Shown here one piece after another: positions 2 to 62,000 of a DNA stretch of 64,000 nt (position 1 is its first letter; each line of letters starts with the position of its first letter). Origin of the DNA: Sediminicoccus rosea (GTDB lineage: Bacteria; Pseudomonadota; Alphaproteobacteria; Acetobacterales; Acetobacteraceae); assembly GCF_033547095.1 (NCBI RefSeq), contig NZ_CP137852.1:1977501-2041500 (forward strand), given 5' to 3'. The notes below the pieces were generated by a model. The model did not search any database. It was given only the letters and a program-made list of their open reading frames with translations, and was not told the origin of the DNA. A program made the position numbers and the translations under genes.

Positions 2-1207
2 GGCCGCGCCGTCGGCCGTGCCATCGTCTGGCAGGACCGCCGCACCGCCGCCACCTGCGAGGCGCTGAAGGCGGCAGGGCATGAGGCGCTGGTCCGCGCG
101 CGCACCGGCCTGCTGCTCGACCCCTATTTCTCCGCGACCAAGCTCGCCTGGCTGCTCGACCACACGCCTGGCGCGCGCGCGGCGGCCGAGCGTGGGGAGC
201 TCTGCTTCGGCACCGTGGAGAGCTTCCTGCTGTTCCGCCTGACCGAGGGGCGCGTGCATGCGACGGATGCGACCAATGCGTCGCGCACCATGCTCTTCGA
301 CATCCATCGCGGCGCCTGGGACGCGGAGCTGTGCGAATTGTTCCGCGTGCCCATGGCGATCCTGCCCCAGGTGCGGGATTGCGCCGCACCGCTGGGCGAG
401 ACACGGCTGCTGGGCGGCGCCATTCCCATCCTCGGCATGGCTGGGGACCAGCAGGCGGCCACCATCGGCCAGGCCTGCTTCGCGCCGGGGATGATGAAGT
501 CCACCTACGGCACGGGCTGCTTCGCCCTGCTGGTGACGGGCGAGGAGGCGGTGCCCTCCTCCAACCGGCTGCTCACCACCCTGGCCTGGCAATTGGGCGG
601 CAGGCGGGCCTATGCGCTGGAGGGCTCGATCTTCATGGCCGGCGCCACGGTGCAATGGCTGCGCGACGGCCTCGGCATCATCCAGCATGCGAGCGAGGCG
701 GATGGCTGGGCCGCCCGCGCCAACCCGGCCGAGCGCGTGCAACTCGTGCCGGCCTTCACGGGCCTCGGCGCCCCCTGGTGGGATGCGGCGGCGCGCGGCG
801 CCATCCTGGGCCTGACGCGCGCTTCGGGCCGGGCCGAGATCTGCCGTGCGGCGCTGGAGGCGGTGGCGCTGCAGACCGGGGACCTGCTGGAGGCGATGCG
901 CCGCGACTGGCCGGGCATGAAGCAGACTGTGCTGCGGGTGGATGGCGGCATGGCGAAGAGCGACTGGACCATGCAGTTCCTGGCCGACCTGCTGGGCGCC
1001 CCGGTGGACCGCCCCATGGTGACCGAGACGACGGCGCTGGGCGCGGCCTATCTCGCGGGCCTGCAGGCCGGGCTGCTGCCCTCGCCCAGCGAGGCGCCGA
1101 CGCATTGGCGGCTGGAGCGCCGCTTCCAGCCCAACATGAGCCGCGAGGAGGCGGCCGAGCGCCGGGCGGCCTGGCAGGACGCGGTGCGCCGGACGCGCAG
1201 CGCATGA
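2..1207 (+). CDS. glpK: Glycerol kinase, 5' end cut by window edge
   Basis: FGGY-family kinase that phosphorylates glycerol to glycerol 3-phosphate with ATP in the cytoplasm. The frame is open from base 2, so the first 75 or so residues of a roughly 500-residue enzyme lie outside; 401 residues are visible. Recognisable glycerol-kinase segments are [36 protein letters not shown] and STYGTGCF, followed by the C-terminal ATPase motif [12 protein letters not shown]. The stop overlaps the next ATG (ATGA, 1204-1207), so translation is probably coupled to the SelA-like gene. The visible part looks intact. Another FGGY polyol kinase is possible in principle, but the motifs fit GlpK well. Confidence 0.93.
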
Positions 1208-2364
1208 TCTTCGCCGAATTCGGCATCACGCCCATCATCAACGCCTATGGCACCAACACGCGCCTCTCGGCCGGGCCGCTGGCCGATGAGGTGGCCGAGG
1301 CCATGCGCGCGGCCGCGACGGCGAGCGTGGACATCCTCGACCTCCAGGCCGCGGCCTGCCGGGAGATCCAGCGCGCCACGGGGGCGGAGGCGGGCTTTGT
1401 CACCTCCGGCGCCTCCGCCGCCTTGTTGCTGGCCGCCGCCGCCTGCCTCGCGCGGCTGGATGCCGGGGCGATGAACCGCCTGCCCGTGACGCGGGAGGGG
1501 CGCTGCGAATTCCTCATCTCTCGCAGCCAGCGCAACATGTATGACCGGGCGATCGAGACGGCGGGCGGGCGCCTCGTGGATGTCGGCATCCCGGACCGCG
1601 TCTCGGGGGCGGGCGTGCGCGATGCGAGTGCGGCGGAATTCGCCGATGCCATCACGCCGCGCACGGCGGGCATCCTGCATGTGGCGCAGCCGCGCGCCGA
1701 GCCGCCGCTGCGCGAGATCATCGCCGTGGCGCGGGCGGCGGGGATTCCGGTCATCGTGGACGCCGCCGCGCAATTGCCGCCGGCGGAGAACCTGCGGCGC
1801 TTCATCGCGGAAGGGGCGGACCTCGTCGCCTTCTCCGGCGGCAAGGCGATCGGCGGGCCGCAGGCCTCGGGTCTTCTCGCGGGCCAGGGGGTGCTGGTGG
1901 CCTCGGCGCTCGCGCAGATGCTCGATCTCGACCTGCCGGCGTCGCAGTTCCGGGCGCCCGCGGAATTCTCGGCGTTGTCGCAACTGGCCTTCTTCCCGCG
2001 CACCGGCATCGGGCGTTCCTGCAAGGTGGGGCGGGAGGAGGTGATGGGGCTGCTGGTGGCGCTGCGCCGCTTCACGGCCGAGGATGCGGCGACGCGCCGC
2101 GCCCGCTGGCAGGCGCGGCTCGATGCGGTGCGCGTCGCCTCCGGCCTCGAGTTCGAGGCGGGCATGGCGGGTGAGGTCCCGCTGCTCTGGCTGCGCGTGC
2201 CCGATGCGCCGGCCATGGAGGCACGGCTGCGCGCGGGCTGCCCGGCCGTGCATGTGAACCCTGCGCGGCTCGCGGAGGGCATCCTCACCATCAACCCGGT
2301 CAGCCTGCATGATCGGGATTGCGCGCGCCTGGGCGAATTGCTGCGCGCGGCCCTTGCCGAGTGA
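1204..2364 (+). CDS. SelA-like PLP-dependent enzyme (aminotransferase class V fold)
   Basis: 386 residues, related to L-seryl-tRNA(Sec) selenium transferase and to D-glucosaminate-6-phosphate ammonia-lyase. The N-terminal [19 protein letters not shown] and the PLP-lysine segment [16 protein letters not shown] (Lys about 214) are typical of this family, which acts on small substrates in sugar-acid or amino-acid catabolism rather than on tRNA when no selD or selB is nearby. None is seen here. The ATG overlaps the glpK stop. A lyase or aldolase acting on a phosphorylated or amino compound is inferred from the kinase and AtuA neighbours; the substrate is unknown. Confidence 0.8.
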
Positions 2365-4181: not shown

Positions 4182-5270
4182 ATGCGACCAGAACGGCTCG
4201 AGGCGCTGCGTTTCGCGGGCTATGCGCCCCGCACCCTGCTCGATGTGGGGGCCCATCTCGGGCATTTCACGGCGGGCCTCCGGCAGGTCTTCCCCGATTG
4301 TGTGCCGACGCTGGTGGAGCCCAACCCGCATTGCCTGCCTGCCCTGGCGGCGACCGGGCATGAGGTGCTGGGCTTCGCCGCCAGCCACGAGAATGGCGAG
4401 GCGGAGCTCTTCCTCACGCGGGAATGGCTGCAATCCACCGGCACTTCGCTCTACCGCGAGAACACGCATTTCTTCCGCGACGAAGTGCTGGTGCGCACGC
4501 CCGTGCCCAGGCGCCGGCTGGATGACGTGCTGGCCGGCCGCCGCTTCGACCTGGTGAAGATCGACACGCAGGGCGCCGAGCTCGACGTGCTGCTCGGTGG
4601 GCAGCAGGTGCTGCGCCAGGCGGACTACATCCTCATCGAGGTCTCGCTGGTGGAATACAACCAGGGCGGCGCGCGCGCGGAGGAGGTCTTCGCGGCGCTG
4701 GGCGCGCTCGGCTTCCGCAGTGCGGAGGTGGCGGAGTTCCATCGCCTGCGCGGCGTGCGGGACGGCGCGCTGCTGCAGCTCGACTTCCTGTTCGAGCGCG
4801 AGGTGCCGCGCCCCTCCCAGGCGCTGCGCGGGCCGGTGGCGGGGCTGGAGACCTGGCTCCAGGAGCGGCGTTCGCGCTGCGCGGATTTCGCGGTGCTGGC
4901 GGTGCGGGAGGCGGGCACCGAGGCCGAGCTGGGCTTCGGCGCGGCGGCAACGGCACTGGCCATCGCGGGCGATCCGGCGCGGGGGCGGGATTGGCAGGCG
5001 CTGTTGCGCCTGGCCGCGCAACGCGGCCGCGTTCCCTATGCCGTTGCGCGCCTGCCGGCCAGCCGCATGGCCGATGCCGCGCTGCTGCTCGACATGCTGC
5101 CGCGCGTGGCGGCCGCCGGCCTGGTGGAGGTGGCGGCGGGCCAGCCCTGGCACTGGGAGGAGGTGGAGGGGCAGATCCGTCTCGCGCCCGGCAGCCGGGC
5201 GATGCCGCCCGTCCTGCAATGGCGCGGCGCGATCGCCTTCGAGGCGCTTGTGGCGCGGAAGGCGGCCTGA
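4182..5270 (+). CDS. FkbM family methyltransferase
   Basis: 362 residues. The SAM-binding motif DVGAHLGHFT lies near residues 21-30 and the FkbM signature KIDTQGAELDVL near residues 126-137, so the first half is a Rossmann-type methyltransferase as in O-methylation of sugars or secondary metabolites. The last 120 or so residues are an extra low-complexity alpha/beta tail not assigned to a family. A GAGGGG site 6 nt before the ATG supports this start. It precedes the repeat protein and a SPINDLY-type glycosyltransferase, so a job in methylating glycans or a surface protein is plausible but inferred. Confidence 0.85.
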   Translation: MRPERLEALRFAGYAPRTLLDVGAHLGHFTAGLRQVFPDCVPTLVEPNPHCLPALAATGHEVLGFAASHENGEAELFLTREWLQSTGTSLYRENTHFFRDEVLVRTPVPRRRLDDVLAGRRFDLVKIDTQGAELDVLLGGQQVLRQADYILIEVSLVEYNQGGARAEEVFAALGALGFRSAEVAEFHRLRGVRDGALLQLDFLFEREVPRPSQALRGPVAGLETWLQERRSRCADFAVLAVREAGTEAELGFGAAATALAIAGDPARGRDWQALLRLAAQRGRVPYAVARLPASRMADAALLLDMLPRVAAAGLVEVAAGQPWHWEEVEGQIRLAPGSRAMPPVLQWRGAIAFEALVARKAA

Positions 5271-5342
5271 TCGGCAAAAAAACCGAGCGCGATTCACGAA
5301 ATATAAGCCTTCGACTGGGAATCTCGTGATGCGGGAGTGGTG

Positions 5343-5405
5343 TTTCCAGAGAGCACCCCTCGGAGAAGCCGGCAGCAAGACGCTGTGTTCCGCCCTCTCT
5401 GGAAA
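5343..5405 (+). promoter_or_regulatory. Inverted repeat in the leader of the repeat-protein gene
   Basis: An exact 11-bp inverted repeat, TTTCCAGAGAG (5343-5353) and CTCTCTGGAAA (5395-5405), with a 41-nt loop. The right arm runs into the AAGGA ribosome-binding site of the gene starting at 5417. A folded leader could therefore occlude initiation. There is no T-run, so it is not a simple terminator. Confidence 0.45.
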
Positions 5406-5416
5406 AGGAATGCGCC

Positions 5417-8400
5417 ATGTCCATCTCGCTGCTCTCCACCAACCAGATCCGCGCGCTGACAACCACCTCGGTGGCGGCGCTCTCGACCACGCAGATCAGC
5501 GCGCTGACGACGACCCAGATCGGGGCGCTCAGCAGCTCTGCCGTCGAGACGATGAGCGCCACGCAGATCGGCGCGCTCTCGACCTCGCAGGTGCGGGGCC
5601 TGACCGCAACGCAGATCCCCTATCTCTCGGCCCAGCTGAGCTTCAGCGGGGACCAGTTGGCCGTGCTGGGCGAGTTCCAGCTGCGCGCCTTGACGACGAC
5701 GCAGCTCTCCGGCCTCGATGCGACGAAAGTCGCGGCGCTGACCACCTCGCAGATCCGTGCGCTGAGCACGACGCAGCTGGGCGCCCTGACGGCGACCGAT
5801 ATCGGCGAATTCACCAGCACCCAGGTCCGCGCCTTGACGGTGAGCCAGGTGGGCGCGCTGGCTTCCACCCAGGTCGCGGCGCTGAGCACGACGCAGCTCA
5901 CAGGGCTCACCGCCTCTCAGATTGGTGGCCTGACGGCGACGGGTCTGTCGGCGCTGGATGCGACGCAGATGGGCGCGCTGAGCGCCACGCAGATCGGGGG
6001 TGTGACGGCGACGCAGATCCGGGGCCTGACGGCGACGGATGTGTCGGAGCTGAGCGCGACCCAGGTGGGAGCGCTGAACGCGTCGCAGATTGGCGCGCTG
6101 AGCGCGACGAATGTCTCGGCGCTGGACGCGACGCAGACGGGGGCGCTGTCGGGCACGCAGCTGCGGGGGCTGAGCACCACGCAGGTGCAGGGTCTGACGA
6201 CGACGGACCTGGGTGAGCTGAGTGCGACGCAGGTGGGCGCGCTGACGGCCTCGCAGGTGGGTGCGCTGAGCGCGACGAGCCTCTCGGCGCTGGATGCGAC
6301 GCAGGTGGGGGCGTTGAGCACGACGCAGGTGCGTGGGCTGACCAATGCGCAGCTGGGCGGGCTGAGCACGACGGATGTGGGCGAGCTGAGCGCCACGCAG
6401 ATCGGCGCCTTGAGCGCGACGCAGCTGGGGGCGCTGGGGGCGACGAACCTGGCGGCGCTGTCGGCCACGCAGATGGGGGGTCTGACGAGCTCGCAGATCG
6501 GCGGTCTGACGGCGACGGCGCTGTCTGGGTTTGACGCGACGCAGATGGGCGCCTTGAGCACGACGCAGCTGCGGGGTGTGACGGCGACGCAGATGGGCGG
6601 GCTGAGTGCGACGGATGTGGGCGAGCTGACGGCGACGCAGGTGGGTGGCCTTGCGGCCTCTCAGATCGGTGGCCTGACGGCGACGGGTCTGTCGGCGCTG
6701 GATGCGACGCAGATGGGCGCGCTGAGCGCCACGCAGATCGGGGGTGTGACGGCGACGCAGATCCGGGGCCTGACGGCGACGGATGTGTCGGAGCTGAGCG
6801 CGACCCAGGTGGGAGCGCTGAACGCGTCGCAGATTGGCGCGCTGAGCGCGACGAATGTCTCGGCGCTGGACGCGACGCAGACGGGGGCGCTGTCGGGCAC
6901 GCAGCTGCGGGGGCTGAGCACCACGCAGGTGCAGGGTCTGACGACGACGGACCTGGGTGAGCTGAGTGCGACGCAGGTGGGCGCGCTGACGGCCTCGCAG
7001 GTGGGTGCGCTGAGCGCGACGAGCCTCTCGGCGCTGGATGCGACGCAGGTGGGGGCGTTGAGCACGACGCAGGTGCGTGGGCTGACCAATGCGCAGCTGG
7101 GCGGGCTGAGCACGACGGATGTGGGCGAGCTGAGCGCCACGCAGATCGGCGCCTTGAGCGCGACGCAGCTGGGGGCGCTGGGGGCGACGAACCTGGCGGC
7201 GCTGTCGGCCACGCAGATGGGGGGTCTGACGAGCTCGCAGATCGGCGGTCTGACGGCGACGGCGCTGTCTGGGTTTGACGCGACGCAGATGGGCGCCTTG
7301 AGCACGACGCAGCTGCGGGGTGTGACGGCGACGCAGATGGGCGGGCTGAGTGCGACGGATGTGGGCGAGCTGACGGCGACGCAGGTGGGTGGCCTTGCGG
7401 CCTCTCAGATCGGTGGCCTGACGGCGACGGGTCTGTCGGCGCTGGATGCGACGCAGATGGGCGCGCTGAGCGCCACGCAGATCGGGGGTGTGACGGCGAC
7501 GCAGATCCGGGGCCTGACGGCGACGGATGTGTCGGAGCTGAGCGCGACCCAGGTGGGAGCGCTGAACGCGTCGCAGATTGGCGCGCTGAGCGCGACGAAT
7601 GTCTCGGCGCTGGACGCGACGCAGACGGGGGCGCTGTCGGGCACGCAGCTGCGGGGGCTGAGCACCACGCAGGTGCAGGGTCTGACGACGACGGACCTGG
7701 GTGAGCTGAGTGCGACGCAGGTGGGCGCGCTGACGGCCTCGCAGGTGGGTGCGCTGAGCGCGACGAGCCTCTCGGCGCTGGATGCGACGCAGGTGGGGGC
7801 GTTGAGCACGACGCAGGTGCGTGGGCTGACCAATGCGCAGCTGGGCGGGCTGAGCACGACGGATGTGGGCGAGCTGAGCGCCACGCAGATCGGCGCCTTG
7901 AGCGCGACGCAGCTGGGGGCGCTGGGGGCGACGAACCTGGCGGCGCTGTCGGCCACGCAGATGGGGGGTCTGACGAGCTCGCAGATCGGCGGTCTGACGG
8001 CGACGGCGCTGTCTGGGTTTGACGCGACGCAGATGGGCGCCTTGAGCACGACGCAGCTGCGGGGTGTGACGGCGACGCAGATGGGCGGGCTGAGTGCGAC
8101 GGATGTGGGCGAGCTGACGGCGACGCAGGTGGGTGGCCTTGCGGCCTCTCAGATCGGTGGCCTGACGGCGACGGGTCTGTCGGCGCTGGATGCGACGCAG
8201 ATGGGCGCGCTGAGCGCCACGCAGATCGGGGGTGTGACGGCGACGCAGATCCGGGGCCTGACGGCGACGGATGTGTCGGAGCTGAGCGCGACCCAGGTGG
8301 GAGCGCTGAACGCGTCGCAGATTGGCGCGCTGAGCGCGACGAATGTCTCGGCGCTGGACGCGACGCAGACGGGGGCGCTGTCGGGCACGCAGCTGCGGGG

Positions 8401-9448
8401 GCTGAGCACCACGCAGGTGCAGGGTCTGACGACGACGGACCTGGGTGAGCTGAGTGCGACGCAGGTGGGCGCGCTGACGGCCTCGCAGGTGGGTGCGCTG
8501 AGCGCGACGAGCCTCTCGGCGCTGGATGCGACGCAGGTGGGGGCGTTGAGCACGACGCAGGTGCGTGGGCTGACCAATGCGCAGCTGGGCGGGCTGAGCA
8601 CGACGGATGTGGGCGAGCTGAGCGCCACGCAGATCGGCGCCTTGAGCGCGACGCAGCTGGGGGCGCTGGGGGCGACGAACCTGGCGGCGCTGTCGGCCAC
8701 GCAGATGGGGGGTCTGACGAGCTCGCAGATCGGCGGTCTGACGGCGACGGCGCTGTCTGGGTTTGACGCGACGCAGATGGGCGCCTTGAGCACGACGCAG
8801 CTGCGGGGCGTGACGGCGACGCAGATGGGCGGGCTGAGTGCCACGGATGTGGGCGAGCTGACGGCGACGCAGGTGGGTGGCCTCGCGGCCTCTCAGATCG
8901 GTGGCCTGACGGCGACGGGTCTGTCGGCGCTGGATGCGACGCAGATGGGCGCGCTGAGTGCCACGCAGATCGGGGGTGTGACGGCGACGCAGATCCGGGG
9001 CCTGACGGCGACGGATGTGTCGGAGCTGAGCGCGACCCAGGTTGAGGCGCTCGGCGTGTCGCAGATCGCGGCACTCTCCGCCACCAACCTCTCCGCCCTG
9101 GACGCCACCCAGGTCGGGGCGATGAGCACGCTCCAGCTGCGCGGCATGACCACCACCCAGGTGCAGGGGCTCTCCAGCACGGATATCGGGGAATTCACCG
9201 AGACCCAGCTCTCCTCGCTGAGCGGCTCGCAGATTGGCGCGCTCACTGCCACGGTGATCGGCGCGCTGACCACGACCAACCTGGATCCGCTGACCTCGAC
9301 GCAGATCCGCGCGCTGACCACCACGCAGATCGACCAGCTCTCCACCACCAACATCGCTTCGCTGAACGAGACCCAGCTCGCCGGCTTCGATGCGACCCAG
9401 GTGGGCAGCATGTCGGATGAGCAGATCACGGCCTATCTCGGCCTCTGA
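5417..9448 (+). CDS. Giant octapeptide-repeat protein
   Basis: 1343 residues, of which nearly all are octapeptides with consensus L-[ST]-[AT]-T-Q-[IVLM]-[GR]-[AG], roughly 165 units. Units build a 56-residue block of seven (ending in Asp/Glu-marked units such as LTATDVSE), and four such blocks plus a three-unit spacer build a 248-residue super-repeat. Residues 172-1163 are four near-identical super-repeats, then a 45-residue partial fifth. No signal peptide or membrane segment is seen. I found one Lys, two Pro and no Cys, Trp or His; Ser+Thr is 67 of 248 (27%) in one super-repeat. Each unit has Ser/Thr three residues before Gln, like a helix capping box, so short stacked helices of a solenoid are possible. 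Function unknown; a secreted or surface protein O-glycosylated by the downstream OGT-like enzyme is an inference. SD AAGGA lies 8 nt before the ATG. Confidence 0.85.
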   Translation: MSISLLSTNQIRALTTTSVAALSTTQISALTTTQIGALSSSAVETMSATQIGALSTSQVRGLTATQIPYLSAQLSFSGDQLAVLGEFQLRALTTTQLSGLDATKVAALTTSQIRALSTTQLGALTATDIGEFTSTQVRALTVSQVGALASTQVAALSTTQLTGLTASQIGGLTATGLSALDATQMGALSATQIGGVTATQIRGLTATDVSELSATQVGALNASQIGALSATNVSALDATQTGALSGTQLRGLSTTQVQGLTTTDLGELSATQVGALTASQVGALSATSLSALDATQVGALSTTQVRGLTNAQLGGLSTTDVGELSATQIGALSATQLGALGATNLAALSATQMGGLTSSQIGGLTATALSGFDATQMGALSTTQLRGVTATQMGGLSATDVGELTATQVGGLAASQIGGLTATGLSALDATQMGALSATQIGGVTATQIRGLTATDVSELSATQVGALNASQIGALSATNVSALDATQTGALSGTQLRGLSTTQVQGLTTTDLGELSATQVGALTASQVGALSATSLSALDATQVGALSTTQVRGLTNAQLGGLSTTDVGELSATQIGALSATQLGALGATNLAALSATQMGGLTSSQIGGLTATALSGFDATQMGALSTTQLRGVTATQMGGLSATDVGELTATQVGGLAASQIGGLTATGLSALDATQMGALSATQIGGVTATQIRGLTATDVSELSATQVGALNASQIGALSATNVSALDATQTGALSGTQLRGLSTTQVQGLTTTDLGELSATQVGALTASQVGALSATSLSALDATQVGALSTTQVRGLTNAQLGGLSTTDVGELSATQIGALSATQLGALGATNLAALSATQMGGLTSSQIGGLTATALSGFDATQMGALSTTQLRGVTATQMGGLSATDVGELTATQVGGLAASQIGGLTATGLSALDATQMGALSATQIGGVTATQIRGLTATDVSELSATQVGALNASQIGALSATNVSALDATQTGALSGTQLRGLSTTQVQGLTTTDLGELSATQVGALTASQVGALSATSLSALDATQVGALSTTQVRGLTNAQLGGLSTTDVGELSATQIGALSATQLGALGATNLAALSATQMGGLTSSQIGGLTATALSGFDATQMGALSTTQLRGVTATQMGGLSATDVGELTATQVGGLAASQIGGLTATGLSALDATQMGALSATQIGGVTATQIRGLTATDVSELSATQVEALGVSQIAALSATNLSALDATQVGAMSTLQLRGMTTTQVQGLSSTDIGEFTETQLSSLSGSQIGALTATVIGALTTTNLDPLTSTQIRALTTTQIDQLSTTNIASLNETQLAGFDATQVGSMSDEQITAYLGL
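5915..9041 (+). repeat. Tandem 744-bp coding super-repeat, 4.2 copies
   Basis: Copies run 5915-6658, 6659-7402, 7403-8146 and 8147-8890, with a partial fifth 8891-9041. The period is 744 bp = 31 octapeptide codon blocks of 24 bp. The copies are almost identical in DNA. The few differences I found are at the outer edges: ATTGG/ATCGG at the start of copy 1, and single changes at 8809, 8842, 8884 and 8959 in copies 4-5. This fits recent expansion and homogenisation by unequal exchange. The flanking, non-amplified octapeptides use more ACC/CTC codons, the array more ACG/CTG. Confidence 0.95.
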
Positions 9449-9469
9449 GGCTGAACAGAGGAGGACAGG

Positions 9470-11440
9470 ATGTCCGAGACCCTCGTCATGACCCTGGCGA
9501 ACCTGGTGACGGAGGCGCAGCGCCTCACGGCGGCCGGTGAAGGGGCGGCCGCGAGCGGCCTTTACGCCGGCTGGATCGCGGCGAACCCCGCGAACCCGCA
9601 GCTCTACATCGCCCATTTCAACCATGCCTGCCTGCAGGGCGATCTGGGCGATGCGTCGGGGGCGCGGGAATCGCTCCAGGCCTGCCTCGCCCTCAACCCC
9701 GACTTCCTGCCGGCCAGCATCAACCTGGGCGGGCTGCTGGAGCGGGCGGGCCAGGTGCCGTTGGCGATCGAGCAGTGGCAGGGCGTGGCGCAGCGCGTCG
9801 TCGCCGTTACCGGGGCTGCCATCGCCTACAAGCTGACCGCGCTCAAGCAGATCGCCCGCGTCTTGAGCGAGCACCACAAGCCGGCCCTGGCCGAGGCGAC
9901 GCTGCGCCAATGCCTCGAGCTGCAGCCCGAGCAGCGTGACGTGATCGAGCAGTTCATGGCGTTGCGCCTCGCGCAATGCGCCTGGCCGGTGCTACCCCCC
10001 GGCGATGCGGCGGAGCGCCGGCGCCTGCTGCGCGGCACCAGCCCGCTCTCCATGCTGGCCTATACGGATGATCCCTGGCTGCATCTCGGTCTTGCCCACC
10101 ACTACGCCCGCTGCCTCGTCGATGAGTCGCGCGACCTCTCGGCGCATGACCGGCGGGATGCGCCGATCCTCCTGGAGGGGCGGCGGCTGCGCGTCGGCTA
10201 TCTCTCCTCCGACCTGCGGGACCACGCGATCGGCACCCTGATGGCCGAGGTGTTCGAGCTGCACGACCGTGGCCGCGTCGAAGTCACGGCCTATTACTGT
10301 GGCCCACCCTCCACCGCTCCGCTCCAGGCGCGGATCAAGGCGGCGGTGGAGCACTGGGTGGATATCCGCGAGATGACGGATGACGCGGCTGCGGCGCGCA
10401 TCGCGGCGGATGGCATCGACATCCTGGTGGATGTGAACGGCTACACGCGTGACGCCCGCACGGCGATCTTCGCGCGGCGGCCCGCGCCGGTGCAGGTGAA
10501 CTGGCTCGGCTATCCCGGCACGCTCGGCACGCCGTGGCACCACTACATCATCGCCGATGCCTGGATCATCCCGCCCGAGGCCGAGCCGCATTACTCCGAG
10601 CGCGTGCTGCGGCTGCCCTGCTACCAGCCCAATGACCGCAAGCGCGTCATCGCCGCCACGCCCAGCCGGGCGGCGGCGGGGCTGCCCGGGCAGGGCTTCG
10701 TCTTCTGCTGCTTCAACGCCTCGCAGAAGCTCTCCCGCTTCACGCTGGAGCGCTGGATGCAGATCCTGCTGGCCGTGCCGGGCAGCGTGCTCTGGCTGCT
10801 GGATTCGGGCGAGGAGATGCGCGCCAACCTGGCCGCCTTCGCGGCCGCGCGCGGCGTGGCGGAGGGGCGGATCGTGTTCGCGCCCAAGCTCAACAACCCC
10901 GAGCACCTCGCGCGCTACCGCCTGGCGGATCTCTTCCTCGATTCCGTGCCCTATGGCGCCCACACCACCGCGTCCGACGCGCTCTGGCTCGGCGTGCCGG
11001 TGCTGACGCTCTCGGGCCGCGGCTTTGCTTCGCGCGTCTGCGGCAGCCTGGTGCGTGCGGCGGGCCTGCCCGGCATGGTCTGCGCCACGCCCGACGAATA
11101 TGTCCGCCGCGCCATCGCCCTGGCGCAGGACCCGGTCGAGCTGGCCCGGCACCGGCGGACCCTCGCGGCGCGGCGGGACCGCTGCGACCTCTTCAACATG
11201 GAGAAGCTGGTGAAGCGGCTGGAGGCGCTGTTCCATCAGGCCGCGCGGACGCACCAGGCAGGCCGCACGCCGGTGCCCCGGCTCGACAACCTCGATTCCT
11301 ATCTCGAGATCGGCGCATCGCTCGATCACGAGGCCGAGGAGATGCTGGCCCTGCCTGACCCGGACGGCCTCTATCGCGCGCGCCTTGCGCGCCGCCATGC
11401 GGTGCGGCCGATGCCGCCGGATGGGCGCCTCTGGCCCTGA
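9470..11440 (+). CDS. SPINDLY/OGT-type glycosyltransferase (GT41) with TPR N-terminus
   Basis: 656 residues. Residues 1-170 or so are TPR-like helices; the C-terminal part is the O-GlcNAc-transferase domain: RLRVGYLSSDLRDHAIGTLM (near 240, with the His equivalent to the OGT active-site region), VNGYTRDARTAIFARRPAP, VQVNWLGYPGT, then NASQKLSRFTLERW (near 415, with the UDP-contacting Lys) and HTTASDALWLGVPVLT (near 497). Such enzymes move a sugar from a nucleotide donor to Ser/Thr of proteins. AGGAGG sits 6 nt before the ATG, 21 nt after the repeat-protein stop, so the two are almost surely co-transcribed. Its stop abuts the convergent gene's stop (TGATCA). Confidence 0.9.
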   Translation: MSETLVMTLANLVTEAQRLTAAGEGAAASGLYAGWIAANPANPQLYIAHFNHACLQGDLGDASGARESLQACLALNPDFLPASINLGGLLERAGQVPLAIEQWQGVAQRVVAVTGAAIAYKLTALKQIARVLSEHHKPALAEATLRQCLELQPEQRDVIEQFMALRLAQCAWPVLPPGDAAERRRLLRGTSPLSMLAYTDDPWLHLGLAHHYARCLVDESRDLSAHDRRDAPILLEGRRLRVGYLSSDLRDHAIGTLMAEVFELHDRGRVEVTAYYCGPPSTAPLQARIKAAVEHWVDIREMTDDAAAARIAADGIDILVDVNGYTRDARTAIFARRPAPVQVNWLGYPGTLGTPWHHYIIADAWIIPPEAEPHYSERVLRLPCYQPNDRKRVIAATPSRAAAGLPGQGFVFCCFNASQKLSRFTLERWMQILLAVPGSVLWLLDSGEEMRANLAAFAAARGVAEGRIVFAPKLNNPEHLARYRLADLFLDSVPYGAHTTASDALWLGVPVLTLSGRGFASRVCGSLVRAAGLPGMVCATPDEYVRRAIALAQDPVELARHRRTLAARRDRCDLFNMEKLVKRLEALFHQAARTHQAGRTPVPRLDNLDSYLEIGASLDHEAEEMLALPDPDGLYRARLARRHAVRPMPPDGRLWP

Positions 11441-13276
11441 TCAGTCGGCCGCCGGCAGGCTCGTCATGTCGAAGCCGTGGAAGAGCGAGAGGAAGAGGAA
11501 GGGGTTGGGCTGCCAGCGCGGATACATCACGTTGTTGATGTCCGCCGTGGTGTCGAACCAACCGAAGCGGGCGGTGCTGGCGTTCCAGCAGGCCTGCAGC
11601 CCGCATTGGTCGATCCAGCGGGTGACATGTGGCCCAGCGAGCGCCGCCTCCAGGTAACCCTGCAATCCGGCGAGGAAGGCGCGGGCGGGCGCGGTGGGGA
11701 AAGCCAGCAGCAGGTTGGCCGTGATGTGGCTGCCGAAGGCGATGCTGGCCTCGTTGCGGTTGAGCACGATGTCCGTTCCTGCGAAACGCGCCAGCAGCTC
11801 GCCGGCGCCACGCTGGAGCACCGCGTCAATGTCGGAGACGAGGACGGGCAGTTCCAGCTCCTCCAGGACGCGGCGCGCGATGGCGAAGCGCGTGCACTGG
11901 AAATGGGCCACGGGCAGGGCGCGTGGGCCATCGCTGTCATGGCATTGGGTGGTGACGGCGGCGGGGCAGAAGTCGTCGGCGCTGTAGAGGATGCGGGGAT
12001 CGGGCATCTCCATCAGCCGGATCAGCGCGGGAAGCTGCCGCGCGCCACCGATGACGTGCACCAGGATCACGCAGGGCAGGTCCGTGTTCCGCAGGATGGA
12101 GGCGAGATAGGCCCGGCCATAGAGGCGCAGATAGGCGGCATCCGCCGCCACGACGAAGGCGACCTTCGCATCGCGCGCCTGCCGGCGCAGCCCTGCCCAG
12201 CCGAGCGGCCGGCCCGCAGCACGGTGGAGCGCCGCAACGGGCAGTGGCGCGGCCTCCCGCCCCAGCAGCCGGGTGTCGGCCGCCTCCGACAGATGGCGGT
12301 AGTGCCGGGCCCAGTGTCGCGCCTCGCCCTCGGGAAGTGCGGTGGGTTCCACCATCCGCGCGGCGGCCACCAGGGCCTGGAGGGCGGCACGGCTCGCCTC
12401 GTCGAGCGGGCGCAGCAGATGGAGGCTGATGGCGCGATGCGCCTCATGCAGGCGGCGCAGCGGATGGATGGCGCCCTCCGGCGCGAGGGCGAGGCCGCTG
12501 CGCGCGGTGAGTTCCTGCGCCCGGTCCCCCGTGGCCTCGGCCTGCTCCAGGCGGATCAGGTTGGCGCCGACATGCCGGGGGTCGAGCGCCAGCAGGGCGG
12601 CCGCGAAGCGCGCCGCGCGCGCGCCCTGGCCGAGCTGCCGGTTGCAGGCCAGCGCCGCTTCCAGCACCGCCGGGTTGTCCGGCTGGAAGCGGGCGAGGGC
12701 GGCGGCCAGGCTCTCGGCGCGCGCCACGTCGCCCGCCGCGATGGCCTGGTTGAAGGCGGCCAGCGCCCCCGTGGCCGCGCGCTGCCCGGCCGCGTCGCCA
12801 TGGGCGAGGCCGAGCGCCTCGGCCCATTCGCCCATCTCCAGGAGGCGTTCGATCAGGGCGGCGCGGGCGGGCGGATGCGATGGCGCCAGCAGGCGCAGCA
12901 GGGCCAGCGCCTCGGCCGGCGGCAGCGCGGCGGCGCGGGCCTGGAGCGCGTTCGCGTCCTCGGCCGGAAGCGTGGCGGCGGGCAGGCGGCGGGCCAGCAG
13001 GGCGGTGCCGAGCGGTGCGAGCGCATAGCCCGCGCCGGCCAGCCGGGGCGCCAGGCCGGGCGGCAGGGGGGCGGTTCGCGGCCAGGCGATCCAGCGCGTG
13101 CCGAGATCCTCCTCCCGCAGCGCCGCGGGTTCACCCAGCCAGAGCAGGTCGGCCGGTGAACCGGCGGCGGCGGGCATCCGGGCCAGCCCGGGGGGCGCCG
13201 GGCCACGCAGCGCCACGCGGGGCGGGGCGTCCAGCATCGCCAGCAGCGGCGCGAAGGGGCAGGGGGGTTCGACCAT
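11441..13276 (-). CDS. Predicted glycosyltransferase with TPR-like N-terminal half
   Basis: 611 residues. The N-terminal 330 or so residues are Ala/Leu-rich helical pairs resembling TPRs. The C-terminal 280 look like a GT-A nucleotide-sugar transferase: KVAFVVAADAAYLRLYGRAY begins it, and the DxD-like metal motif in LPVLVSDIDAVLQR lies near residue 478. I cannot name the family or sugar. Start 13276 is preferred because GGAG lies 10 nt upstream; an in-frame ATG at 13297 has no such site. It converges on the OGT-like gene with no bases between stops. A role in the same glycosylation module is inferred from position. Confidence 0.68.
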   Translation of the reverse strand: MVEPPCPFAPLLAMLDAPPRVALRGPAPPGLARMPAAAGSPADLLWLGEPAALREEDLGTRWIAWPRTAPLPPGLAPRLAGAGYALAPLGTALLARRLPAATLPAEDANALQARAAALPPAEALALLRLLAPSHPPARAALIERLLEMGEWAEALGLAHGDAAGQRAATGALAAFNQAIAAGDVARAESLAAALARFQPDNPAVLEAALACNRQLGQGARAARFAAALLALDPRHVGANLIRLEQAEATGDRAQELTARSGLALAPEGAIHPLRRLHEAHRAISLHLLRPLDEASRAALQALVAAARMVEPTALPEGEARHWARHYRHLSEAADTRLLGREAAPLPVAALHRAAGRPLGWAGLRRQARDAKVAFVVAADAAYLRLYGRAYLASILRNTDLPCVILVHVIGGARQLPALIRLMEMPDPRILYSADDFCPAAVTTQCHDSDGPRALPVAHFQCTRFAIARRVLEELELPVLVSDIDAVLQRGAGELLARFAGTDIVLNRNEASIAFGSHITANLLLAFPTAPARAFLAGLQGYLEAALAGPHVTRWIDQCGLQACWNASTARFGWFDTTADINNVMYPRWQPNPFLFLSLFHGFDMTSLPAAD

Positions 13277-13387
13277 CCTGGTCAGTCTCCGGGGCATGCG
13301 CGCTGGAAGACTGACCGGGAGGCGTTAACGAAGCACGAAGGCCCCGCCGGCAAGGCTTTCTTTACCGCGGCCGCCTATGCTGGACGC

Positions 13388-56296: not shown

Positions 56297-59065
56297 ATGG
56301 CCAGCACCGCAACACCTGCCGCCCCACCGGATGGCCCTGACCAGGGTCGTGCCTTGTGGCTCTCAACCATCGCCTTCACCGTCTGCTTCGCCGTCTGGAC
56401 CATCTTCGCCATCATCGGCGTCCAGATCAAACGCGAGTTGGGTCTGAGTGAAACGCAGTTCGGCCTGCTCGTCGGCACGCCTATCCTGACCGGCTCGCTG
56501 ATTCGACTGCTTCTCGGGATCTGGTCTGATCAATACGGCGGGCGAATGGTGTTCACCATCACCATGCTCTCCGCCGCCGTGATGACGGCGCTGCTCACCC
56601 AGGCCTATGACTATCCGACCTTCCTGCTGGCCGCACTCGGTGTCGGTCTGGCTGGCGGCTCCTTCTCGGTTGGCGTCGCCTATGTGGCGAAGTGGTTCCC
56701 CAAGGAGAAGCAGGGCACCGCGCTCGGCATCTTCGGCGCCGGGAATGTGGGCGCGGCCGTCACCAAATTCGCCGCCCCCGTCATCATGGTCGCCTATGGC
56801 TGGAAGACCGTCGCGCTGATCTGGGCGGCGGCGCTGCTGGTGATGGCGGTCGTCTTCTTCGTGATGACGAAGGATGACCCGGACCTGGCGCGCCGCCGCG
56901 CCATCGGAGCGAAGCCCGAGCCGCTCTCGGCCATGATGGAGCCGCTGAAGAACATCCAGGTCTGGCGCTTCTCGCTCTACTACTTCTTCGTCTTTGGCGC
57001 CTTCGTGGCGCTGGCGCTGTGGCTGCCGCGCTACCTCATCGGGGTCTATGGGCTGGATATCGTCACCGCCGGCATGGTGGGTGCGGCCTATTCCATCCCG
57101 GCTTCGATCTTCCGTGCCTATGGCGGGCACCTGTCCGACAAGTTCGGCGCGCGGCGGATCATGTACTGGACCTTCGGCGTCTCCGTCGTCTGCACCTTCA
57201 TCCTTTCCTATCCGCCGACGCAATACGTGGTGCAGGGCATCCGCGGCCCGATGACCTTCAGCATGTCCATGGGCCTCATCGGCTTCATGATCACCACGTT
57301 CACGCTGGGCTTCTTCATGAGCCTGGGCAAGGCGGCCGTCTACAAGCACATCCCGGTCTACTACCCCGACCGCGTCGGCGCCGTGGGCGGCGTGGTGGGC
57401 CTGGTGGGCGGCCTGGGCGGCTTCGTCCTGCCCATCGCCTTCGGCGCCCTGAATGACCTGACCGGCGTGTGGCAGAGCTGCTTCTGGCTGCTTTTCCTCA
57501 TCGTCGCGGTCGCGCTGGTCTGGATGCACGTCTCCATCCTGCGGATGGAGCGCGAGGCTGCCGAGCCGGCGGGGCTGCATCAGAACCTGCCCGAACTGCC
57601 GGAAATGCAGCCCATCCACACCCCCGCGCAGAAGGGCGCGCTCTCGGCCAAGGGCCCGATCCAGGATTGGCGTCCAGAGGACAAGGTCTTCTGGGAGGGT
57701 CCTGGCCGCGCCATCGCGCGCCGCAACCTCTGGATCTCGGTACCCTGCCTCCTGCTCTCCTTCGCGGTCTGGATGGTGTGGTCCGTCGTGGTCGCCAAGC
57801 TGCCGAGCGTGGGCTTCGCCTTCACGACGGAGCAGCTCTTCTGGCTGGCTTCTCTACCGGGCCTCTCGGGCGCCACACTGCGCATCGCCTATAGCTTCAT
57901 GCCGGCGATGTTCGGCGGCCGGCTCTGGACGACGCTCGCCACCTGGTCGCTGCTGATCCCCGCACTCGGCATGGGCTTCGCCGTGCAGGATCCGGCGACC
58001 CCCTACTGGATCTTCCTGCTCCTCGCCCTGCTCTGTGGCTTCGGTGGCGGCAACTTCGCCTCCTCCATGGCCAATATCTCCTTCTTCTTCCCGAAGAGCG
58101 AGAAGGGCAACGCGCTCGCCATCAATGCGGGCCTCGGCAATCTCGGCGTGAGCGTGGTGCAGTTCGTGGTGCCGCTGGCCATCACGGCCGGCGTCTTCGG
58201 CTGGCTCGGCGGCGCGCCGCAGACGGCAACCGTCGGCGGCGTCACCTCGACGCTCTGGCTGCAGAATGCGGGCTTCGTCTTCGTGCCCTTCATCATCGCC
58301 TCGGCCTTCGCGGCCTGGTTCGGGATGAACGACATCGCCAGCATGAAGGCCTCCTTCGCGGACCAGGCGGTGATCTTCCGCCGCACCCACAACTGGATCA
58401 TGTGCTGGCTCTACACCGGCACCTTCGGTTCCTTCATCGGCTTCTCGGCCGCCTTCCCGCTGCTCTCGCGCATCCTCTATCCCGAGGTCAACGCGCTGAA
58501 ATACGCCTTCCTGGGCCCCCTGGTCGGCGCGCTGTCCCGTGCCGTGGCTGGCAAGCCCTGTGACCGGATCGGCGGCGGGCGGATCACCTTCTGGGTCTTC
58601 ATCGCCATGTCGTTGGGTGTGATGGGCATCCTCTACGCCATCGGCATGAAGGGCGACCCGACTTCCTTCCCGGTCTTCTTCGCGAGCTTCCTCTTCCTCT
58701 TTGCCGCGACCGGCGTGGGCAATGCCTCCACCTTCCAGATGATCCCCGCCATCATGCGCAAAGAGGTGGCGCGCCTCGAGCCCGGCCTGACGGGGGCGGA
58801 GCGCGTGAAGCAATCCGACAAGGAATCGGCCGCGATCATCGGCTTCACCTCTGCCATCGCCGCCTATGGCGCCTTCTTCATCCCCAAGAGCTTCGGCACC
58901 TCCATCGCCATGACCGGTGGCCCGGAGACGGCGCTCTATAGCTTCCTGGGGTTCTACGTGAGTTGCGTCCTCGCGACCTGGTGGTTCTACACGCGCCGCG
59001 GCGGCCTGCTGCACGACGTCGAGCGCGGCGGCCACACGGCCCCCGCCGTCTCTCCCGCCCAATGA
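56297..59065 (+). CDS. narK: Fused double nitrate/nitrite transporter NarK (NarK1-NarK2 type)
   Basis: 922 residues with two complete MFS modules of about 12 helices each. Module 1 (residues 1-420 or so) has NarK-like VGVAYVAKWFPKEKQGTALG and TLGFFMSLGKAAVYKHIPVY; module 2 (about 465-900) has GNFASSMANISFFFPKSEKG. The linker between (about 425-460) is soluble and Pro/Glu-rich. Paracoccus-type denitrifiers have such a fusion, one part working as nitrate/H+ symporter and the other as nitrate/nitrite exchanger. AAGGAGG precedes the ATG by 5 nt. First gene of narKGH, probably controlled by the divergent Crp/Fnr regulator. Confidence 0.93.
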   Translation: MASTATPAAPPDGPDQGRALWLSTIAFTVCFAVWTIFAIIGVQIKRELGLSETQFGLLVGTPILTGSLIRLLLGIWSDQYGGRMVFTITMLSAAVMTALLTQAYDYPTFLLAALGVGLAGGSFSVGVAYVAKWFPKEKQGTALGIFGAGNVGAAVTKFAAPVIMVAYGWKTVALIWAAALLVMAVVFFVMTKDDPDLARRRAIGAKPEPLSAMMEPLKNIQVWRFSLYYFFVFGAFVALALWLPRYLIGVYGLDIVTAGMVGAAYSIPASIFRAYGGHLSDKFGARRIMYWTFGVSVVCTFILSYPPTQYVVQGIRGPMTFSMSMGLIGFMITTFTLGFFMSLGKAAVYKHIPVYYPDRVGAVGGVVGLVGGLGGFVLPIAFGALNDLTGVWQSCFWLLFLIVAVALVWMHVSILRMEREAAEPAGLHQNLPELPEMQPIHTPAQKGALSAKGPIQDWRPEDKVFWEGPGRAIARRNLWISVPCLLLSFAVWMVWSVVVAKLPSVGFAFTTEQLFWLASLPGLSGATLRIAYSFMPAMFGGRLWTTLATWSLLIPALGMGFAVQDPATPYWIFLLLALLCGFGGGNFASSMANISFFFPKSEKGNALAINAGLGNLGVSVVQFVVPLAITAGVFGWLGGAPQTATVGGVTSTLWLQNAGFVFVPFIIASAFAAWFGMNDIASMKASFADQAVIFRRTHNWIMCWLYTGTFGSFIGFSAAFPLLSRILYPEVNALKYAFLGPLVGALSRAVAGKPCDRIGGGRITFWVFIAMSLGVMGILYAIGMKGDPTSFPVFFASFLFLFAATGVGNASTFQMIPAIMRKEVARLEPGLTGAERVKQSDKESAAIIGFTSAIAAYGAFFIPKSFGTSIAMTGGPETALYSFLGFYVSCVLATWWFYTRRGGLLHDVERGGHTAPAVSPAQ

Positions 59066-59093
59066 TCCCGACCGAAAACCGAGGCATCACGAC

Positions 59094-62000
59094 ATGAGCC
59101 ATTTTCTTGACCGCCTGACCTTCTTCAAGAAGGTCCAAGAGCCCTTCTCCAACGGCCACGGCATCACCACCAACGAGGATCGCCGCTGGGAGGATGGCTA
59201 CCGGAAGCGCTGGCAGCACGACAAGATCGTTCGCTCCACGCATGGTGCCAACTGCACCGGCTCCTGCTCCTGGAAGATCTATGTGAAGGGCGGCATCGTC
59301 ACCTGGGAAACCCAGCAGACGGACTATCCGCGCACGCGCCCCGATCTTCCCAATCATGAGCCGCGCGGCTGCTCGCGCGGCGCCTCCTACAGCTGGTATC
59401 TCTACTCGGGCAACCGCGTGAAATACCCGCTGGTGCGCTCGCGGCTCATCAAGCTGTGGCGCGAGGCGCGGGCGATCATGACGCCCGTCGCCGCCTGGGC
59501 CTCCATCGTCGAGAATCCGGAGAAGCGGGCCGCCTACACCAGCAAGCGCGGCCATGGCGGCTTCGTCCGTGCCGGCTGGGACGAGGTGCAGGAGATCATC
59601 GCCGCCGCCAATGCCTATACGGCCAAGACGCACGGCCCAGACCGCATCTTTGGCTTCTCACCCATCCCGGCCATGTCCATGGTCTCATACGCCGCGGGCA
59701 GCCGCTATCTCTCGCTGATCGGCGGCGTCTGCATGTCCTTCTACGACTGGTATTGCGACCTGCCCCCAGCCTCGCCGCAGACCTGGGGCGAGCAGACTGA
59801 CGTGCCGGAATCGGCCGACTGGTACAATGCGGGCTTCATCATCCTCTGGGGCTCCAACGTGCCGCAGACGCGCACGCCCGACGCGCATTTCTACACCGAG
59901 GCGCGCTATCGCGGCATGAAGAGCGCGGTGATCTGCCCCGACTATTCGGAGGCGGCGAAGTTCGGCGACATCTGGCTTTCCGTGAAGCAGGGCACGGATG
60001 CGGCGCTGGCGATGGCGATGGGGCATGTGATCCTGAAGGAATATCACGTGGCCCGGCAAGTGCCGTACTTCCGCGACTATCTGCGCCAGTACACCGACAT
60101 GCCGATGCTGGTGAAGCTTGTGCAGCAAGGCGACCAGCTTGTGCCGGAGCGCTTCATTCGCGCCAGCGATTTCGATCAATCCCTCGGCGAGGCGAACAAT
60201 CCCGAGTGGAAGACCGTCGCCTTCGACGAGACCACCGGAAACATCGTCGCGCCGCGCGGCACCATCGGCTTTCGCTGGGGCGAGGCAGGCAAGTGGAACC
60301 TGGAGGAGAGGGCCTCGGACGGTACGGCCACGAAGCTGCGCCTCTCGCTCGATGGCATCCAGGACGAGATGGCCGACGTCGCCTTCCCCTATTTCGGCAA
60401 TATTGAGCATGAGCACTTCACCTCGACGAACCACGCCTCCGTGCTGCATCGCCGCGTGCCGGTAAAGCGCCTGGCGCTGGCCGATGGCGAGACGCTGGTG
60501 GCCTGTGTGCATGACCTGTTCCTGGCCAATTACGGCGTGGATCGCGGCTTCGGCGGCGACAACATCGCGGCAAGCTATGACGAGGTGGCACCCTATACGC
60601 CGGCCTGGGCCGAGAAGATCACCGGCGTCAGCCGCGACAAGATCATCCAAGTGGCGCGCGAATTCGCGACCAATGCCGAGAAGACCAAAGGCCGCTCGAT
60701 GATCATCATCGGCGCCGCGATGAACCATTGGTTCCACGCCGACATGAACTACCGCGGCGTGATCAACATGCTGGTGCTCTGTGGCTGCGTCGGCCAATCG
60801 GGCGGCGGCTGGGCGCATTACGTGGGGCAGGAAAAGCTGCGTCCGCAGGCCGGTTGGGCGCCGCTCGCCTTCGCGCTGGATTGGGGCCGTCCGCCGCGCC
60901 AGCAGAACTCCACATCGGCCTTCTACGCGCACACCGACCAATGGCGCTACGAAACGATGAATGTGGGCGACATCATCTCCCCAACTGCGCCGAAGGGTCC
61001 GTGGGACGGATCGATCATTGACTACAACATCCGCGCCGAGCGGATGGGCTGGCTGCCTTCCGCGCCGCAGTTGCAGACCAACCCGTTGCAGGTCGGCCGT
61101 GACGCGGCGGCGGCTGGCATGTCGGCCAAGGACTATGTGGCGAAGGGGCTGAAGGAGGGCACGTTGAAGCTCTCCTGCGAGGACCCGGATCATCCGAAGA
61201 ACTGGCCGCGCAACATGTTCGTCTGGCGGTCGAACCTGCTCGGGTCCTCCGGCAAGGGGCATGAGTATTTCCTCAAGCATCTGCTGGGCACGACGCATGG
61301 CGTGCTGGGCAAGGACCTCGGCGCGCAGGGCAGGGCCAAGGCCACCGAGGCGGTCTGGCATGAGGAGGCGCCGGAAGGAAAGCTGGACCTGCTGGTGACG
61401 CTGGATTTCCGTATGTCCACCACCTGCGTCTATTCCGACATCGTGCTGCCCACGGCCACCTGGTACGAGAAGAACGATCTCAATACCTCGGACATGCACC
61501 CCTTCATCCACCCGCTGACCGGCGCGGTGGACCCGGCCTGGGAAGCGCGCAGCGACTGGGAGATCTACAAGGGCATCGCGAAGGCCTTCTCGCGCGTGGC
61601 GCCCGAGGTTCTCGGCGTCGAGACCGATGTGGTGCTGAACCCCATCAAGCACGACAGCGCGAATGAGATCGCCCAGCCCTTCGACCCGCGCGACTGGAAG
61701 CGCGGCGAGTGCGAACCGATCCCGGGCCAGACCATGCCCAATGTCTTCGAGGTGAAGCGCGACTATCCCGCCACCTACGAGCGCTTCACGGCACTCGGCC
61801 CCCTGATGGACAGCATTGGCAATGGCATCAAGGGCATGGCCTGGAAGACCGGGCATGAAGTCGAACATCTCAAGGCGCTGAACGGCGTCCATGCCGAGGG
61901 CGCCAATAAGGGCCTGGCGCGGATCGTCTCGGACATCGATGCGACCGAGGTGATCCTGATGCTCGCCCCCGAGACAAATGGTGAGGTCGCGGTGCATGCC

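Follow-up and report, generated by a model that had tools for sequence, protein, structure and literature searches.

An ALTTAQ octapeptide-repeat protein of Sediminicoccus rosea and its adjoining GT41 glycosyltransferase: a proposed glycosylated superhelical fibre

The window analyzed here is a stretch of 64,000 nucleotides from Sediminicoccus rosea (contig NZ_CP137852.1, positions 1,977,501 to 2,041,500 of the forward strand). It carries a gene for a 1343-residue protein made of octapeptides (octads) of the ALTTAQ repeat family, followed by a gene for a glycosyltransferase of family GT41 with tetratricopeptide repeats (TPR). We propose, with a probability of roughly 60%, that the repeat protein is a secreted superhelical alpha-solenoid fibre, O-glycosylated in the cytoplasm by the adjoining GT41 enzyme before export. 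The GT41 genes beside such repeat genes that were retained for a tree fall within one clade, and in 16 of 24 proteins the order of the octads has a hidden period close to 3.42 octads, which would correspond to one superhelical turn.

Results

The repeat protein and its family

The repeat gene and its parts are as follows.

5417..9448, + strand: ALTTAQ octapeptide-repeat protein, 1343 aa (open reading frame with ATG start, PF20080 at E 3.8e-158, dN/dS)
5624..5668, + strand: break in the octad register near the N terminus, about residues 70-84 (octads written out)
5930..6673, + strand: super-repeat copy 1, 31 octads, residues 172-419 (DNA and protein self-comparison)
6674..7417, + strand: super-repeat copy 2, DNA identical to copy 1 (DNA self-comparison)
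7418..8161, + strand: super-repeat copy 3, DNA identical to copy 1 (DNA self-comparison)
8162..8905, + strand: super-repeat copy 4, 99.6% DNA identity to the others (DNA self-comparison)
9356..9445, + strand: C-terminal tail resembling the tails of relatives, a candidate export signal (termini compared by eye)

The protein belongs to Pfam PF20080 (ALTTAQ_rpt), with 513.3 bits against a cut-off of 26.4. The first-pass annotation, made from the sequence alone, had not recognized the fold. The view that the repeat is undescribed is not supported, given the profile match and a solved relative, HeliScrew4 (PDB 9zem); the repeat sequence itself is not new, because the family is already known to Pfam. 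Further Pfam matches (Gp5_trimer_C, DUF4351, CAAP1, Ribosomal_L12_N) and an NCBIfam thioredoxin match had no stretch that passed alone and were taken as effects of composition.

Octads with the consensus L-[ST]-x-T-Q-[IVLM]-x-[AG] run over nearly the whole length, and 166 were counted in register, in agreement with the earlier count of about 165. Compared with itself, the protein has an identity of 0.44 at a lag of 8 residues, 0.58 at a lag of 56 and 0.83 at a lag of 248, whereas none of 500 shuffles exceeded 0.15. The extreme composition that had been described was recovered for the whole protein (one Lys, two Pro, no Cys, Trp or His, and 375 Ser or Thr in 1343 residues, 27.9%); the lone Lys and both Pro, however, lie outside the super-repeats. 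Marker octads having Asp5 and Glu8 are found at residues 204, 260, 316, 396 and 452, and their spacings of 56, 56, 80 and 56 residues (7+7+10+7 octads) add up to 31 octads, or 248 residues. Residues 172-1163 are four consecutive 248-residue units, identical as protein; as DNA three are identical and the fourth shares 99.6% identity with these, with an exact 2141-nt run at period 744 (positions 5924-8064). The predicted super-repeat of 31 octads is thus confirmed, whereas the claimed 56-residue level stands clear of the shuffles but is weak inside a single unit (0.46 at lag 56 versus 0.41 at lag 48 and 0.39 at lag 64, residues 1-419).

The counterpart in Roseococcus sp. SDR (L088) also has 1343 residues, and its four units are 5-11% divergent from each other as protein. 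The window copies are almost wholly identical as DNA, in contrast to the divergence in Roseococcus sp. SDR; this suggests a recent homogenization, or unequal crossing-over, unless the assembly produced it. Between the two genes, the + frame has 0.068 substitutions per nonsynonymous site (dN) and 0.512 per synonymous site (dS), a dN/dS of 0.13, and the gene looks to be under purifying selection. These values, together with homologues in several families and orders, make it barely conceivable that the locus is repeat-rich DNA with an open frame and no real protein, even if antisense frames over the repeats are open too. The antisense frame at 5294-9976 (- strand, 1560 aa, Arg/His-rich), open across the whole repeat gene, was taken as a shadow of GC-rich repeats.

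PF20080 was found in 26 genomes of a sample of 150 from the window's family, Acetobacteraceae, and in 6 of the 337 genomes of a class sample (the window's genome and five from other families). Thirteen named loci were also followed, from Roseococcus, other Acetobacteraceae, Caulobacter, Phenylobacterium, Hyphomonadaceae and less well placed Alphaproteobacteria. The repeat is matched by 58 plasmid records, mostly of Rhizobium, Shinella and Cereibacter. Records name the relatives "hypothetical", "heme utilization" or "ICE nucleation" protein, and our literature search found no paper naming ALTTAQ.

Some single occurrences were observed in addition. A Rhizobium rhizoryzae plasmid (L157:14813-17143) has two ALTTAQ genes close together, with a GT41 gene about 5 kb further on. 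An ALTTAQ-like match (27.7% identity, E 1e-25) lies on a plasmid of a Spiroplasma endosymbiont of Drosophila (CP117533.1, 14107-15192), a host far from the others. In the phage collection, one phage alone (two records) gave a weak ALTTAQ-like match, gene 51 of Mycobacterium phage Squirty (NC_026588.1, 36383-36874; 31.4%, E 3e-8).

The GT41 gene and its clade

9470..11440, + strand: TPR and GT41 glycosyltransferase (O-GlcNAc-transferase-like), 21 bp 3' of the repeat stop codon (PF13844, XcOGT alignment)

The product of this gene is a GT41 enzyme by its match to PF13844 (E 6.8e-80, 269.3 bits against a cut-off of 25), and its residues 41-595 (555 residues) match XcOGT (2jlb) at E 5.1e-90. His252 and Lys420 align to His218 and Lys388 of XcOGT, which we take to be the active-site His and Lys. 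The TPR part was matched by TPR_12 (E 1.2e-6) and TPR_8 (E 9.6e-5), both just below their own cut-offs.

The enzyme follows the repeat across genomes. In the family sample, GT41 is found in 26/26 repeat-bearing genomes versus 53/124 others, and in 21 of the 26 no more than 1.7 kb separates it from the repeat gene, where about 0.5 such genomes would be expected by chance (the genomes being related). The five misses are G007 and G119, with the repeat at a contig edge; G120, with repeat and GT41 both at contig ends; and G063 and G138, where a GT41 of the clade described below lies at another place (as a pair in G063). Similarly, GT41 is found within 1.7 kb in 10 of the 13 named loci, including those of Caulobacter, Phenylobacterium and Hyphomonadaceae; the others are L097 (none), L098 (gene cut, weak hit only) and L099 (the contig ends inside the gene, whose other end is L100 of the same metagenome-assembled genome). 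It lies within 4.2 kb in three of the five genomes from other families and within 10 kb in at least 26 of the 58 plasmid records, 11 of them of Cereibacter sphaeroides.

In a tree of the quick kind, built from 72 of 76 GT41 rows and in which near-copies help a label to cluster, all 40 retained repeat-adjacent rows fell in one clade of 47 rows (SH-aLRT 99). Left out were L098 (labelled adjacent, a weak partial hit), L075 (very long) and two L152 rows (repeating L084); the non-adjacent rows are a selection of the fetched GT41 proteins rather than all those in their genomes. Seven rows of the clade are non-adjacent. Their sources are G063 and G138, which carry the repeat on a different contig or at a different place; G120, in which contig ends truncate both genes; and G145, a fragmentary genome where the repeat was not found. 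Outside the clade, none of the 25 rows is repeat-adjacent, as checked by a neighbourhood scan for 11 and by fetching the flanks for 14. For these 14 (L137-L151), no octad frame was found in up to 20 kb around the gene, some contigs being short (6 kb in L175), and the same scan showed octad frames in three of three positive controls. Since all the retained adjacent rows lie inside the clade and none outside is adjacent, the clade looks dedicated to the repeat protein. Within the literature searched, at the level of listings and the beginnings of abstracts, nothing joining the repeat, GT41 and secretion was found, nor any paper with a dedicated GT41-repeat partnership.

The two genes could instead share a locus and a pathway, with the repeat protein acting as a scaffold or reader for other glycoproteins rather than as acceptor. 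Repeat genes with no GT41 nearby do exist, so that the solenoid is not always in need of the enzyme, and G063 has its pair of GT41 genes of the clade at a different locus from the repeat gene. We nevertheless regard this arrangement as unlikely: the retained adjacent GT41 rows are one clade, three of the four genomes behind its non-adjacent rows also carry a repeat gene, and Ser and Thr together make up 71, 63 and 63% of octad positions 2, 3 and 4 (5729 octads).

Predicted fold

AlphaFold2, given one 248-residue unit with an alignment of 30 rows (the unit and 29 others), predicts 31 helices of 5-6 residues, one per octad, and no strand, with a mean predicted local distance difference test (pLDDT) of 96.8 and a predicted TM score (pTM) of 0.88. 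This prediction agrees with the solenoid of very short helices that had been suspected from the sequence. Leucine-rich repeat chains of the PDB also match by sequence; leucine-rich repeats have a beta-strand in each repeat, and because the model is without strand these matches were put down to leucine spacing. The same all-helical model makes an ice-binding or ice-nucleation protein very improbable. That idea comes from the record names of Cereibacter relatives (an "ICE nucleation protein" in Cereibacter sphaeroides) and fits the octapeptide hierarchy, but ice-nucleation repeats form a beta-solenoid, of which the model has no trace, and at E<=1 Pfam matched no ice-nucleation family.

HeliScrew4, whose name suggests a designed protein, aligns with the repeat profile without gaps over 110 residues (E 2.2e-26). 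It was not among the best 50 Foldseek matches to the predicted unit, and no paper naming HeliScrew was found in the literature search. No close structure was found by Foldseek among solved structures (mesothelin at the top of the best 50, TMq 0.33-0.37), and TMq did not exceed 0.32 in the best 50 from BFVD, where four rows had E <= 0.001, all from uncultured phages. VIA-align gave middling Z scores to a phage receptor-binding protein (9.2), mesothelin (7.3) and also armadillo-type chains, which is evidence for neither kinship nor a new fold. An alpha-solenoid review (PMC11514114) contained no passage matching the terms tried.

A hidden period in the order of the octads

Octads were compared at every lag, with clipped scores, against shuffles of the octad order in 24 proteins, hand-chosen from 48 repeat open reading frames and the plasmid loci to thin near-copies (L130 excluded); the window protein was represented by residues 1-419 only. 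The best mean lags are 17, 10, 24, 7, 34, 14, 38, 41, 27 and 31 octads, which are rounded multiples of 3.42, and the mean over all 24 proteins peaks at 3.42 octads, or 27.4 residues. Taken individually, 16 of the 24 peak at a period of 3.32-3.46 octads with a value higher than in any of 100 shuffles; in L091, L092 and L097 the strongest lag is modest, with the period still present. When the eight octad positions are analyzed separately, every one peaks at 3.41-3.43. The strength of this signal (power) is 1.0 at position 1, 1.6 at position 6 and 3.4-4.7 at the other six, so the two weakest positions are those expected inside.

Several residue types also keep to one phase beyond all 200 shuffles. 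Among proteins with enough such residues, this was the case for Asp5 (12/15), Glu2 (7/7), Glu8 (5/5), Asn5 (6/6), Asp2 (5/6) and Arg, Lys or Gln at position 7 (11/16), as well as for Gly8 in 8/20 proteins.

From these sequence data we infer that the period may reflect a superhelix that has unlike faces and completes a turn in about 3.4 mini-helices. Since the favoured lags are rounded multiples of 3.42, the 31 octads (7+7+7+3+7) of the window unit can be read as nine turns; the strongest lags of other family members, 17 and 24 octads, would then be five and seven turns. The periods of the three-level hierarchy in the first-pass annotation are real, with the 56- and 248-residue levels recast as one hidden period of about 3.42 octads. 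No paper in the literature searched has such a period accounting for the hierarchy.

Other neighbouring genes and export genes

11441..13297, - strand: TPR and GT-A-like glycosyltransferase (predicted), 618 aa (no Pfam match at E<=1)
4182..5270, + strand: FkbM-family methyltransferase, upstream (PF05050, E 4.4e-18)

The DxD motif is a mark of GT-A glycosyltransferases, and in the 618-residue protein, whose GT-A fold is a prediction, D489-I490-D491 is invariant in 7/7 rows. The gene is conserved near the repeat gene in several relatives. The FkbM gene is in the same place in L088, L094 and L099; as a fixed partner of the repeat gene it was rejected in general.

Genes of the type I secretion system (T1SS) accompany the repeat gene in several lineages. 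Strong HlyB and/or HlyD matches were found beside it in 8 of the 26 family genomes and two of the five genomes from other families. Of 11 plasmid regions, three have such genes in their annotation, those of Pseudoroseomonas cervicalis, a Pseudomonas sp. and Cereibacter sphaeroides 2.4.1. On plasmid pA of the last, a laboratory strain, the repeat gene (DQL45_RS23715) is accompanied by genes for GT41 (DQL45_RS20570, an O-linked acetylglucosamine transferase), ABC, HlyD and methyltransferase proteins. A weak HlyB-like ABC match (26-27% identity) occurs in L092 and L093, and the ABC-HlyD pairs of the window genome are located elsewhere. The Pfam matches of the repeat protein at E<=1 include no RTX family.

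Elsewhere in the window, 1204-2364 (+) encodes a pyridoxal phosphate-dependent enzyme with sub-threshold matches to D-glucosaminate-6-phosphate ammonia lyase, and 56297-62837 (+) encodes a major facilitator superfamily transporter followed by the respiratory nitrate reductase alpha subunit.

Discussion

In the mechanism that we propose, each octad would form one mini-helix. Leu1 and the aliphatic residue at position 6 would probably face inward, Ser/Thr2 would stand just ahead of the helix, and Gln5 is the commonest residue at its position. One turn would take about 3.42 octads (27.4 residues), so that 7, 10, 17, 24 or 31 octads restore the same face, and super-repeats would favour such lengths. 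The TPR-GT41 enzyme encoded just downstream would have the repeat protein as its dedicated substrate and would place sugars on Ser/Thr of the octads in the cytoplasm; the TPR-GT-A protein may extend these sugars, and FkbM-type methyltransferases may cap them by a putative methylation. The glycosylated product would then be exported, most likely by type I secretion, and work outside the cell as a fibre with unlike faces, with a possible function in adhesion, a coat or the biofilm matrix.

More generally, the relatives may be a new class of glyco-fibres in bacteria, an extension to which we give an even chance. Its members would be secreted mini-helix superhelices with about 3.42 octads per turn, each with a cytoplasmic TPR-GT41 from the clade of its own and, in some lineages, a TPR-GT-A extender and methyltransferases; super-repeat lengths of 17, 24, 27, 31, 34 and 38 octads would be kept to align faces.

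Several observations weigh against the glycosylated-fibre proposal. No glycan has been observed on the repeat protein. The GT41 linkage has gaps: 32 of the 58 repeat plasmid records have no GT41 within 10 kb (among the best 60 of 85 GT41 records), none is annotated in the regions of two Shinella, Thioclava, Roseateles, Polaromonas and Rhizobium SL42, G188 has GT41 genes that are not near its repeat gene, none was found in G289, and second repeat genes in G350, G322 and G143 have none within the 20 kb fetched, as in L097. FkbM adjoins the repeat gene in only part of the set. As for the period, there is little stripe signal for Ser/Thr4 (2/12 proteins) or non-Leu1 (3/20), and exact tandem super-repeats inflate the phase test and feed the period test despite the clipping. 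Moreover, eight of the 24 proteins fall outside the 3.32-3.46 group: L061 peaks at 3.44, below its own shuffles, while L040, L154, L155 and L156 peak elsewhere above their shuffles and L057, L065 and L157 elsewhere below them.

Finally, neither the window nor any of the 13 named loci has a strong HlyB/HlyD match beside the repeat gene. This, together with an N terminus in which no signal peptide is evident by eye, would suit an intracellular solenoid scaffold that is never exported; such a protein is rather improbable in view of the T1SS genes found beside the repeat gene in several lineages.

If the glycosylated fibre is real, the ALTTAQ family would gain a function and a partner enzyme, and a clade of bacterial O-GlcNAc-transferase-like enzymes its natural acceptors. 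Protein design would also gain a very short helical repeat with a pitch that is readable from sequence. The gene set on plasmid pA makes Cereibacter sphaeroides 2.4.1 suitable for a direct test.

Among known systems, HeliScrew4 resembles the repeat protein at the sequence level, with octads such as LTPEQIAA, but has 120 residues. Mesothelin and armadillo-type chains are helical superhelices (Foldseek, VIA-align), as predicted for the repeat unit, and the downstream enzyme shares family GT41 with XcOGT and human OGT, resembling XcOGT in the aligned region with its conserved His and Lys. The closest parallel in mode of action may be FlmG of Caulobacter crescentus, where, according to PMC7591256, the TPR part binds flagellins, the glycosyltransferase part is needed for their modification, and glycosylation is argued to occur in the cytoplasm before export. 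Both cases would pair a soluble TPR glycosyltransferase with a structural protein, modified before export. The acceptor of FlmG is a flagellin, whereas here it would be a solenoid of octads, some relatives of which have T1SS genes beside them, and the repeat protein's Pfam matches at E<=1 include no flagellin family. By analogy, the repeat/GT41 pair may work like FlmG without being a member of that system.

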